From Methylocapsa sp. S129 (GTDB lineage: Bacteria > Pseudomonadota > Alphaproteobacteria > Rhizobiales > Beijerinckiaceae), in assembly GCF_009765995.1 (NCBI RefSeq), contig NZ_LMUI01000024.1, positions 73,882-137,881 on the forward strand: DNA of 64,000 bases, in the 5' to 3' direction. Shown here piece by piece: positions 31,893 through 34,529 of the stretch. The position numbers and the translations under genes were made by a program. The notes beneath the pieces were generated by a model. The model was not told the DNA's origin, did not search any database, and saw only the letters and a list, made by a program, of their open reading frames with translations. The first letter of the stretch is position 1. Each line of letters begins with the position of its first letter.

Positions 31893-32117
31893 ATGGCCTC
31901 GGCGCCGACGCCAAAATCTTCGCGCCTTAAGGTGCAAAACCAACGCGCGCGGCTGCACAAGCAGGGCCTGCGTCCGATCCAGATTTGGGCGCCGGACGTG
32001 CGCGCGCCGGCCTTTCGCGCTGAGGCGCATCGCCAGTCTCTGGCCGTCGCCGCCAGTGCTGCGGCGCGCGACGATCAGGCCTTCATCGACGCGGTTTCGG
32101 ATCGGGACGATGAGTGA
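31893..32117 (+). CDS. DUF3018/MazE-like antitoxin
   Basis: A 74-residue antitoxin that should bind and neutralise the downstream MazF-type RNase and repress its own operon. The motif RLHKQGLRPIQIWAPDVRAPAF is characteristic of DUF3018 antitoxins. The acidic C-terminal tail (AFIDAVSDRDDE) is the likely toxin-wrapping part. A GGGAG ribosome site lies seven bases before the ATG. Its stop overlaps the toxin start by four bases (GTGA). Confidence 0.85.
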   Translation: MASAPTPKSSRLKVQNQRARLHKQGLRPIQIWAPDVRAPAFRAEAHRQSLAVAASAAARDDQAFIDAVSDRDDE

Positions 32118-32467
32118 AGCGGGGCGACATCTGGACGGTCTTAGGCGGCAAGGATTGCGCAGGCAAACCGCGTCCCATCGTCATCGTGCAGGATGACAGC
32201 TTTGACGCAACCGACTCGATCGCGATCTGCGCCTTCACTATCGACGCGACGGAAGCGCCGCTGTTTCGTCTTCCCGTCGAGCCGAACGATCGCAATGGGT
32301 TGCGCGCGCCGTGCCGTTTGATGGCGGACAAAATCACGACCGTGCCGAAATCCAAAGTCGGCGCCCGCATTGGGCGCCTCGACGACGAAGACATATTGCG
32401 TCTCAATCAGGCGCTGCTGGTGTTTCTCGGTTTGGCTGTGTCGCCCAGGGCGAAACGCGGAGCATGA
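32114..32467 (+). CDS. MazF/PemK-family endoribonuclease toxin
   Basis: A 117-residue sequence-specific mRNA interferase, the toxin of the type II pair. It begins KRGDIWTVLGG, the usual MazF start, with the conserved GKPRPIVIVQDD, then the shortened core CRLMADKITTVPKSKVGARIG and the C-terminal LDDEDILRLNQALLVFLGL. The GTG start at 32114 overlaps the antitoxin stop. All core elements look intact, so it is probably active. The family call is strong; the cleavage site is unknown. Confidence 0.9.
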   Translation: MKRGDIWTVLGGKDCAGKPRPIVIVQDDSFDATDSIAICAFTIDATEAPLFRLPVEPNDRNGLRAPCRLMADKITTVPKSKVGARIGRLDDEDILRLNQALLVFLGLAVSPRAKRGA

Positions 32468-32474
32468 TTCGACA

Positions 32475-33497
32475 ATGACCAACAAAGCATGGGCGCTGCG
32501 GGGCGGGTTCGGCATCGACAGGCTCGCGCTTGAGGAGCGGCCTGAGCGTGAGCCCGGCTTTGGCGAGGCGCGGGTGCGGATCGAATGGGTCAGCCTCAAC
32601 AGGCGCGACCTGCTGCTCGTCGAAGGCATCTATAATCCGCGGCAGGCCTTGCCGATCGTTCCCTGTTCGGACGGTGCGGGAATCGTCGAGGCTTTAGGCG
32701 CGGGATGCGAGCGCGTCCAGGTCGGCGATCGCGTCGTCGTGCATTTCTTCCCGGGCTGGATCGCCGGCGAGCCTGATATGGCCAAGCTTGCGACCGGGCT
32801 CGGCGGACCGGGCGGCGACGGCACGCTGCAGCAGACGCTTGTTATCGCTGAGCAAGCGCTTGTTCGCCTGCCCGAAGCCCTCTCGACGCAGGCGGCGGCG
32901 ACCTTGCCCTGCGCCGCGCTGACCGCCTGGTGCGCGATCGTCGAACAGGGCGGCGTCAGGCCGGGCTCGGTCGTGCTCACCCAGGGTACGGGCGGCGTGT
33001 CGCTGTTCGCAGTACAATTCGCCAAAATGCTTGGCGCGCGCGTTGTCGCGACGACGTCCAGCGACGCCAAGGCGGCGACTTTAAGCGAACTCGGCGCCGA
33101 CGCGATCGTCAATTATCGCACCGATCCCGATTGGGCGCGCCGCGCCCGCGAACTGGCTGGCGGCCCCATCGACCTCATTGTCGAAGTCGGCGGCGCCGAT
33201 ACGCTCGACGCCTCGTTACGCCTCATTCGCCCTGGCGGCACGATCGCGCTGATCGGCGTTCTCTCCGGCGCGAAGGCCGCGATCAATCTGCCGCTCGCCG
33301 TGATGCGTCAGGTGCGCCTGCAAGGCGTCACCTGCGGGCATCGCGAGAATTTCGAGGCGATGCTGCGCGCTATCGCTGCACATGGAATCGATCCCGTTAT
33401 CTCGCATCGCTTCGGGTTCGGCGAGGCGCGCGAGGCGTTCCAGTGCATGGCGAGAAATGAGCACGTCGGCAAAATCGTGGTGGCGATGGATGGTTGA
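32475..33497 (+). CDS. Zinc-independent alcohol dehydrogenase / quinone oxidoreductase family protein (MDR)
   Basis: NAD(P)-dependent oxidoreductase of about 340 residues. I chose the ATG at 32475 (TNKAWALRGGFGIDRL), where the GroES-like domain begins; the longer frame overlaps the toxin gene. The N-terminal domain has SLNRRDLLLVEGIYN and VGDRVVVHFFPGWIAGEP. The nucleotide-binding domain has VLTQGTGGVSLFAVQFAKMLGARVV and the Gly-rich loop, and LGADAIVNYRTDPDW follows. The four-Cys structural zinc lobe of classical alcohol dehydrogenases is absent, so it groups with quinone-reductase-like MDR members. The substrate cannot be assigned. It starts seven bases after mazF, but a functional link is unlikely. 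Confidence 0.88.
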   Translation: MTNKAWALRGGFGIDRLALEERPEREPGFGEARVRIEWVSLNRRDLLLVEGIYNPRQALPIVPCSDGAGIVEALGAGCERVQVGDRVVVHFFPGWIAGEPDMAKLATGLGGPGGDGTLQQTLVIAEQALVRLPEALSTQAAATLPCAALTAWCAIVEQGGVRPGSVVLTQGTGGVSLFAVQFAKMLGARVVATTSSDAKAATLSELGADAIVNYRTDPDWARRARELAGGPIDLIVEVGGADTLDASLRLIRPGGTIALIGVLSGAKAAINLPLAVMRQVRLQGVTCGHRENFEAMLRAIAAHGIDPVISHRFGFGEAREAFQCMARNEHVGKIVVAMDG

Positions 33498-33557
33498 TGC
33501 GGGGCGAATCACGCATCAAAGGGTCGGGTGTGATCCATCGTTTCGCATGGCGGAGCG

Positions 33558-33654
33558 TTTTTCACCTTTGAGAACTTGTCAAGGATCGCCCTGCGGGCGA
33601 CCGCCGGAGGCGGCGCGCTTCGCGCGTCCTGGACAAGTTCTCAAAGGTGAAAAA
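33558..33654. repeat. Cloverleaf-like structured intergenic element (long inverted repeat enclosing three hairpins)
   Basis: A 97-nt element between convergent genes. Perfect 23-base arms (33558-33580 and 33632-33654) form the outer stem, extended by AGGA/TCCT after one A-G mismatch. Inside lie three adjacent hairpins, each with a 5-base stem and a 3-base loop: CGCCC-TGC-GGGCG (33587-33599), CCGCC-GGA-GGCGG (33601-33613) and CGCGC-TTC-GCGCG (33614-33626). No T-run follows the stem on either strand, so it is not a standard terminator. It is probably one copy of a dispersed palindromic family (inference). Confidence 0.85.
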
Positions 33655-33740
33655 GAATGGCCTGCATGCGAACAATGGCTCAATAACGAACGCTAAGCCG
33701 TCTAGTGAATTGCGCTTCGCTTCGTTCGTTTCTTCAGGCG

Positions 33741-34529
33741 CTAAATCGCCAGCCTTGCCCCCACCAGCGCGAGCGTGCCCGCCAGCACCGGGCGCAGCAC
33801 TTTATCAGGCACGCGCGAGGCGAGCTGACTGCCGATCGCTATGCCGGGGAGGGAGCCGATCAAGAGCGAGACAAGCAGCGACCAGTCGATCGAGCCGAGG
33901 AACCAATGGCCTGTTCCGGCGATCAGGGTCAAAGGCACGGCGTGAGCGATATCCGAGCCGACGATCCTGACCGTCGGCAATTTGGGATAAAGCATCAGCA
34001 GCGCGGTCACGCCGATGGCGCCAGCGCCCACCGATGAGATCGAGACAAGCACGCCGAGCACGGCGCCCAGAAGATTAGTCAGCAACCGGATCTGCCCATC
34101 GTTCAGTGTCTCGAGCGTGCTGGCGACTTTGGCCAGCAGCCAGGTGCGGAAGATGAGCGTCACGGCGGTGACGATCAAAGCAAAGCCCAGCGTCGTGGTG
34201 ATGACATCGCTCGCCGTCTTGCTGTCATGGCCGAAATAGGCGAGCGCCAGCAGCGTCAGCGCGGCGGCGGGCGCACTGCCTGCGGCCAGGCGCCGCGTAA
34301 TGCGCCAGTCGACCGCGCCGTTCAGCCCATGCACCGCGGTGCCGCTGATTTTGGTGAGCCCGGCATAGAGCAAGTCGGTGCCCACGGCGGTGGCGGGATG
34401 GATGCCAAACAACAGCACCAGCAGCGGCGTCATCAGCGAGCCGCCGCCAACGCCGGTGAAGCCGACCAGCGCGCCGATGGCGAGGCCGGAGAGCGAATAG
34501 AGCGGATTGAGGGTGTGAAGAAAATCCAT
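33741..34529 (-). CDS. TauE/SafE (TSUP) family sulfite/anion exporter-like membrane protein
   Basis: An integral membrane protein of 262 residues with about eight hydrophobic helices. It has the two TSUP repeat signatures: LYSLSGLAIGALVGFTGVGGGSLMTPL near the N-terminus and GVLVSISSVGAGAIGVTALLMLYP in the second half. TSUP members export sulfite or sulfoacetate or transport other small anions. It lies 24 bases downstream of a sulfhydrylase gene on the same strand, so a role in sulfur-compound traffic is likely. The substrate is not shown by sequence. Confidence 0.88.
   Translation of the reverse strand: MDFLHTLNPLYSLSGLAIGALVGFTGVGGGSLMTPLLVLLFGIHPATAVGTDLLYAGLTKISGTAVHGLNGAVDWRITRRLAAGSAPAAALTLLALAYFGHDSKTASDVITTTLGFALIVTAVTLIFRTWLLAKVASTLETLNDGQIRLLTNLLGAVLGVLVSISSVGAGAIGVTALLMLYPKLPTVRIVGSDIAHAVPLTLIAGTGHWFLGSIDWSLLVSLLIGSLPGIAIGSQLASRVPDKVLRPVLAGTLALVGARLAI

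Follow-up and report, generated by a model that had tools for sequence, protein, structure and literature searches.

A cloverleaf-bearing palindrome of Methylocapsa sp. S129 as the probable core of an IS630-type MITE with drifting, complementary arms

ISY100, a relative of IS630, inserts at the dinucleotide TA and duplicates it, as described in PMC2170065. The reference list of the same paper names the study by Tenzen and Ohtsubo (1991) on the preferential transposition of the IS630 transposon to the TA within CTAG. Polymerase template switching has been reported to homogenise the arms and invert the spacers of quasipalindromes in yeast genes (PMC8604942). Features of both systems meet in a 97-nt element at positions 33558-33654 of the window, the whole stretch of 64,000 nucleotides of Methylocapsa sp. 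S129 that was analysed (contig NZ_LMUI01000024.1, positions 73,882 to 137,881, forward strand). The 97 nt are probably the core of an IS630-type MITE of approximately 245 bp, inserted at TA and in stop codons, with arms rewritten by template switching. From comparison of its copies, the feature is best read as an IS630-type MITE core with an unusual stem, in which pairing appears to be kept and sequence left free. None of the open-licence papers searched recognisably describes this repeat family.

The outer arms of the core (33558-33580 and 33632-33654) are perfectly paired over 23 nt, and the pairing extends to 28 nt at 96%. They enclose three hairpins, separated by 1 base (hairpins 1 and 2) and by 0 bases (hairpins 2 and 3). 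The resulting cloverleaf is the minimum free energy fold both as DNA and as RNA, with z-scores of -10.4 and -7.9 respectively against shuffles, none of which was as stable (0/200 each). A sequence-only reading of the locus had described the perfect 23-base arms, the three nearly spacerless hairpins of 5-base stem and 3-base loop (TGC, GGA, TTC), a regularity unlikely by chance and the lack of a T-run on either strand. The sequence and its fold agree with this description.

Two familiar identities were rejected for the core. It is not an intrinsic terminator, as the T-run (U-run in RNA) typical of such terminators follows the big stem on neither strand; a simple scan of 33400-33850 returned a single weak terminator-like site at 33539-33557 (chance expectation 0.7). 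A tRNA-like cloverleaf was likewise dismissed, since no tRNA model matched and ARAGORN found no tRNA. Alignment of the copies suggests that the 97 nt fall short of a larger repeat unit, placed at about 33497-33741, the parts and neighbours of which are given below.

32475..33497, + strand: zinc-binding dehydrogenase family gene; the left boundary of the element overlaps the TGA with which it stops
33497..33741, no strand assigned: probable complete element, a diverged type-1 copy of ~245 bp; boundaries placed by alignment with L014, L015 and L017
33497..33534, + strand: A-end terminal region; TA followed by GAGCnTGATGATTTTTGATCGAAACGGTCGAG is the consensus of other copies, degenerate in the window copy
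33535..33557, + strand: outer stem, A side, CCATCGTTTCGCATGGCGGAGCG
33558..33585, + strand: 5' arm of the long middle stem; variable on the outside, with the conserved GTCAAGGA at its end (33578-33585)
33587..33599, + strand: hairpin 1, CGCCC-TGC-GGGCG
33601..33613, + strand: hairpin 2, CCGCC-GGA-GGCGG
33614..33626, + strand: hairpin 3, CGCGC-TTC-GCGCG
33627..33654, + strand: 3' arm of the middle stem, containing the start of a promoter-like match (33630-33658)
33655..33678, + strand: outer stem, B side, with CATGCGAACAATGG at its end
33679..33741, + strand: B-end terminal region; the minus-strand TauE gene has the next TA (33742-33743) in its stop codon
33741..34529, - strand: TauE/SafE family gene, convergent; its stop codon lies at the right element boundary

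Similarity among the type-1 copies, those which resemble the window copy, spans about 240-245 bp, far past the 97 nt. The order of parts is an A end starting with GAGCnTGATGATTTTTGATCGAAACGGTCGAG, outer stem A (CCATCGTTTCGCATGGCGGAGCG), a middle arm, the three hairpins, the second middle arm, outer stem B (CCTCCATGCGAACAATGG) and a B end finishing in CCGTTCGATTCAATCAATTCTCATCTCGCTC. The terminal inverted repeats are imperfect and start with GAGC (GAGCnTGATGATTTTTGATCGAAACGG at the A end, GAGCGAGATGAGAATTGATTGAATCGAACGG at the B end). At ~245 bp the element is too short to hold a transposase gene; open reading frames run across it. Directly upstream of the dehydrogenase gene lies a PemK/MazF-like toxin gene (window 32114-32467).

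The 97 nt were used to search the genome of S129 itself (6.87 Mb, 62 contigs), giving 42 matches at E<=10. Eighteen of these had E<1e-8 and mark 17 places, the window copy having matched on both strands; many of the weaker matches were short. The covariance model R1, built from 14 type-1 cores, gave 47 matches at E<=1 with both strands combined, at 28 places, 24 of them matching the whole model and 4 a part. Type 1 comprises 16 cores of 57-64% GC (L001-L012, L014-L017) and a seventeenth, truncated copy (L013). Type 2 (L018, L019, L021, L022, L025, L026, L080) and type 3 (L023, L081) have other arms and ends, and two further copies are partial (L082, L083). At E<=0.01, R1 matches 7 of the 11 genus genomes, S129 included, and hence 6 of the 10 others; the matches of G001 are weak, with TGTCGAAGG in place of TGTCAAGG. 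The dispersed palindromic family proposed by the sequence-only reading is borne out by these searches and by the compensatory change in the arms: the element is neither a lone copy nor missing from relatives, and covariation is present. The REP/TnpA-REP part of the same interpretation was not supported.

Several copies carry additional sequence. An insert of ~33 nt with two hairpins, located in hairpin 3, is common to L013 and L014 (type 1) and L018 (type 2), which suggests exchange of cores between the types. In L025, L026 and L080 the middle hairpin bears in its loop a common insert of ~40 nt, within which lies a TTGCTGAC..GTCAGCAA hairpin. Two type-2 elements on contigs 50 and 38 of the same genome (L117:985-1064 and L120:839-918) are split by an identical 80 nt, in both at a CTCAA/GTCAA motif. 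The 80 nt match 55 plasmid records, in one of which (Bradyrhizobium barranii) the match lies just downstream of the ltrA gene of a group II intron; the interrupted loci matched no intron among the Rfam models. Class C introns are described as inserting at terminator motifs and attC (PMC4424553).

The ends were counted on the 12 type-1 copies that have both; L001, L003, L006 and L008, with degenerate ends, were left out. TA adjoins the B end in 10/12, the A end in 6/12, both ends in 5/12 and at least one end in 11/12. TA together with the next element base forms the stop codon of the neighbouring gene (TAG or TAA) in 9/12, and the window copy fits this pattern, the end of the TauE-family gene being TA plus an element base. 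Gene context could be classified for 13 of the 17 type-1 copies, the other four having one side without a called gene: 8 lie between convergent, 4 between tandem and 1 between divergent genes. Convergent pairs make up 13/71 of the background (9/58 within the window, with three longer, element-bearing loci supplying the remainder), against which the 8/13 represents an excess with p 0.0007, on gene calls from a simple codon-usage caller trained on the window. The 11 type-2, type-3 and partial copies, 8 of them classifiable, are tandem in 6 cases, divergent in 2 and convergent in 0. As the excess is limited to the type ended by TA and GAGC, insertion at TA in stop codons explains the convergence better than a role of the core.

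Four loci in the S129 genome were found by a PF13358 (DDE_3) search. L041 and L042 carry TA followed by GAGC at both ends, at a distance of about 1.06 kb; the ends of L043 differ, and L044 yielded no end pair. The agreement between the MITE and the IS630-type ends is limited to TA-GAGC and scattered bases, and only two of the four IS630-type loci have even that, which counts against the assignment. Identity past GAGC being scattered, the assignment is to the IS630 type and not to one named IS. A stretch resembling L042 is annotated as an IS630 family transposase in a Sinorhizobium record.

A transposase of the IS630/Tc1-mariner type would probably insert the non-autonomous ~245-bp element at TA, with CTAG preferred. 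Mobilisation in trans is suggested by the dispersed copies, their terminal inverted repeats and TA flanks, and by IS630-type loci whose ends start with the same bases. A stop codon may tolerate insertion at its TA, as the first base of the element, usually G and sometimes A, would restore TAG or TAA. A stop codon rebuilt in this manner would account for copies positioned exactly at gene ends, often between convergent genes. The family illustrates how stop codons may harmlessly accommodate an IS630-type MITE.

No clean empty site was found in the relatives, nor was the dehydrogenase-TauE gene pair. Matches to the TauE gene and to its other neighbour, a Cys/Met metabolism gene, fall on separate contigs in the relatives, and the dehydrogenase gene is matched in short pieces only. 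At the L015 site, the right-hand gene is present in G003 and G008, with the left-hand gene not beside it. AlgH-like and RecF-like genes lie ~30-70 bp apart, by match ends, in G001, G002, G004 and G005. In S129 two elements, one of type 1 and one of type 2, occupy the same interval along with a cytochrome c gene, and more than one event must therefore have occurred there. The cytochrome c gene, bracketed by the two elements at L087:1553-2660, is a possible element-bounded gene insertion.

The long stem keeps its pairing as its sequence drifts. Pairing holds in 98.7% of the 599 cells taken from 14 of the 16 type-1 cores, and double changes occur in 15/43 pairs. The covariation score of this alignment was reached by 0/500 shuffles, and pairing drops to 36-43% in slid control alignments; the test for covariation put forward by the sequence-only reading thus revealed strong compensatory change. 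In the outer helix of these cores, variation leads from Watson-Crick to Watson-Crick or to a non-pair, never to G-U. Identity between copies (12 copies, 66 pairs) is 63% in the variable arm, 77% and 84% in the ends, 98% and 96% in the outer stem and 88% in the cloverleaf.

The wider family behaves similarly with some exceptions. Of 41 selected loci given to R1, 40 matched, in the genomes of six species (L030 did not), and their 1040 stem cells on the best strand of each comprise 1009 Watson-Crick pairs, 8 G-T, 4 A-C and 19 others, in an alignment fitted to the structure, which flatters the pairing. Half of the stems (20/40) are perfect. Among 30 distinct arms, positions 1-18 are 39.5% alike and positions 19-25 (GTCAAGG) 82.6%; the parts of the core that look constrained are the GTCAAGG/CCTTGAC stem base and the GC hairpins. 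Mismatches at positions 18-19 account for 13/31, are mostly C-C and recur in type-2-like copies of several species. The imperfect stems and this mismatch beside the motif count against arm copying, as copying should erase such a mismatch. The outer stem maintains its A/B differences in the type-1 copies compared, so that homogenisation, if real, is limited to the inner stem.

Measured against the element ends, the cloverleaf is direct in 9 of the 16 type-1 copies and inverted in the other 7; each arm class includes copies of either orientation. On a tree of the ends, at least 4 changes are required for orientation and 4 for arm class, but the tree is poorly resolved and a single clade for arm class Q is not rejected (p-AU 0.076). 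Coreless forms are also present. L116 and L168 consist of two ends with the core missing, L118 and L119 have lost the core and part of the flanks, and L170 is a 59-bp remnant. The L118 junction lies between the direct repeats CACCCTTGA and CACCCTCGA and fits slippage, and that of L116 fits the 3-base repeat CAC. Hairpins in replicating DNA are expected to yield such deletions.

A palindrome of this length would form hairpins during replication. Switching of the polymerase from one arm to the other would copy changes across, so that the arms drift with their complementarity intact, and may at times flip the cloverleaf, the flipped products of which are observed. Slippage across the hairpin would likewise delete the core, which the observed coreless products match. 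A mutational origin of the covariation is preferred, since matched arms and flipped spacers are the two reported products of template switching. As both are known from that process, covariation alone is no proof of a functional RNA.

The design extends beyond the genus. The model R2, built on 75 aligned matches, was found at E<=1e-6 in at least 8/249 genomes of the order, S129 included, a lower bound set by strict filters and by 16 candidates scored per genome. Thirteen of 18 order-level loci, representing seven genomes, were inspected in register; each has a long stem with apical hairpins, two or three where countable, and one or both arms carry a (G/C)TCAAG-type motif. L177, L181, L184, L187 and L189 were read in register for the TTGAC motif only. 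The arms differ between the genomes of the order and are common to the four G046 copies viewed. In G046 and G185, the cores at L174, L176, L180, L183, L186 and L188 lie near another strong hairpin, mostly GCGCCAATGGCGA..TCGCCATTGGCGC, which is possibly part of a larger unit. Class-wide, the pattern TGTCAAGG..CCTTGACA occurs in 6/385 genomes and its reversed control in 1; the pattern is insensitive, with 0 matches in the window's own genome.

A scan of viral contigs gave at least 120 stretches, 80 of which, along with 7 class-level loci, gave 88 scored hits. Three of the 14 hits examined by eye are family-like: L195 (class), L204 and L251 (both viral). The L251 element (L251:3125-3181) is of the same design and occupies the gap that separates two baseplate genes, one like Mu gp45 and one like gp46. 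Plasmid records contained no match to the 97 nt, and phages none to 33490-33745. On a Burkholderiales MAG contig, of which 600 bases were examined, the outer-stem box is present and the core absent.

The same observations bear on explanations in which the core itself is functional. A somewhat unlikely one is that the cloverleaf and long stem are a mobile or exchangeable module of their own inside MITEs with different ends, read through GTCAAGG and the hairpins by a putative structure-specific protein. Elements of type 1 (TA-GAGC), of types 2 and 3 and of the G010 type do carry one core design despite their differing ends, and it recurs in a Mu-like viral contig and in seven further genomes of the order; elements without a core exist, and the ~33-nt insert links type 1 (L013, L014) to type 2 (L018). 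The coreless junctions, however, resemble slippage deletions, no partner gene emerged from the loci compared, and a CATTGTT-like outer-stem box common to types 1, 2 and the G010 type would allow for common descent of the whole unit. Sites such as attC are recognised by structure and not by sequence. By analogy, the family may belong to an order-wide fold-back superfamily with a fixed head (a GTCAAGG-type stem base with two or three GC hairpins) and a paired stem of free sequence, carried in different-ended MITEs and at least one Mu-like viral contig, whose folded single strand would be read by a putative protein with the C-C mismatch marking the strand; this is considered unlikely. Equally unlikely is selection on an RNA structure that would stabilise or terminate mRNA 3' ends or serve as an RNase III substrate. 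Such selection could keep the pairing, and the very stable fold (DNA z -10.4, RNA z -7.9), the strong compensatory change, the convergent setting of 8/13 type-1 copies and the reported action of ERIC and NEMIS elements on mRNA (PMC2229807) agree with it. The stem nevertheless displays no clear strand preference, with G-T at 8 and A-C at 4 among 1040 cells on a strand chosen by the model. The cloverleaf moreover occurs in both orientations, the T-run is absent, and TA insertion explains the placement at stop codons, the other types being convergent in 0/8. The reading as a MITE core with arms rewritten by template switching is preferred over all three.

Known motif classes offer further candidates. 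The conserved motif could act as a -35 box: CCTTGACA, read outward with a weak -10 some 16-17 nt on, would form a promoter directed out of the element at one of its sides, a proposal rated as quite improbable. The scan of 33400-33850 that covered the window copy found a promoter-like TGGACA-17-AAGAAT on the + strand at 33630-33658, starting within the 3' arm, where shuffles expect 0.0. Over 58 loci, a -35-like TTGACN points outward on 95/116 sides, and 21 of these 95 have a -10-like hexamer at a spacing of 16-18 (shuffled mean 2.8, maximum 10), which belong to 13/15 type-1 copies, on a single side in each, and to a further 8 from G257, G185, G169 and G046. Correia elements also have reported putative promoters in the overview given by PMC2229807. 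Every one of the 21 matches, however, agrees with the -10 in only 4 of 6 bases, control spacings of 34-36 and 31-33 yield 20 and 14, related copies inflate the counts, and no type-3 or G010 copy has such a -10. A REP/REPIN-type element moved by a Y1 (RAYT) transposase, suggested by the sequence-only reading as a TnpA-REP substrate, is highly improbable. It shares the dispersal of extragenic palindromes, but GTAG is absent from 33558-33654, CGTC occurs inside the core only, the unit far exceeds the 20-40 nt of REPs, it has terminal inverted repeats, and its TA flanks and GAGC ends resemble those of two IS630-type loci of the same genome. Identity with the Rfam DUF3800-IV RNA (RF02963) was rejected as generic long pairing with no DUF3800 gene. 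The full-length window match scores 29.3 bits (E 0.002-0.007), short of the gathering score of 60.7; the S129 genome gave no match to RF02963 and 0 matches to the DUF3800 gene (PF12686). Against miRNA models, two other elements reach still lower E-values (L073 plant models at 7e-13, L190 animal models at 5e-5), which attributes the DUF3800-IV match to long pairing alone. An Rfam scan of 17 and 11 further loci gave only a flanking tRNA gene above threshold.

Strong covariation is usually taken as evidence for a functional RNA. Here it occurs in presumably mobile repeats together with products of spacer inversion and deletion, a combination that points to the arms of a palindrome rewriting each other. 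Drifting but still matched, the arms document in nature how a palindrome may rewrite its own sequence. If confirmed, the family would offer a natural system in which to test bacterial template switching, and a caution for RNA-motif discovery.

Compared with described systems, the family is closest in form to the RUP elements of Streptococcus pneumoniae and the Correia/NEMIS elements of Neisseria, which PMC2229807 presents as short non-coding intergenic units with terminal inverted repeats and a terminal TA. NEMIS of 155/107 bp have long and short forms, with or without an internal segment (PMC2229807), as does the present family. In contrast to RUP and Correia/NEMIS, the internal segment of the present family is a three-hairpin cloverleaf found in both orientations, on a stem that is variable yet complementary. 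Most IS630-associated MITEs are A+T-rich in the same account (PMC2229807), whereas the type-1 cores have 57-64% GC. IS630 insertion sequences duplicate TA (PMC2170065), a probable parallel to the TA flanks seen here, and L041 and L042 begin and end with TA and GAGC; unlike them, the window element has no transposase gene and its internal parts are unrelated. The CIR repeats of Caulobacter are also alphaproteobacterial, intergenic and formed of long stem-loops, but are described with two separate arms, a linker and GANTC sites, compared to the one stem with apical hairpins seen here (PMC2229807). The DUF3800-IV RNA (RF02963) shares a long low-information outer stem with apical hairpins. Quasipalindromic hotspots of template switching share the homogenised arms and inverted spacers; those of PMC8604942 are short repeats in yeast genes, while the present family is dispersed, presumably mobile and present in several species.
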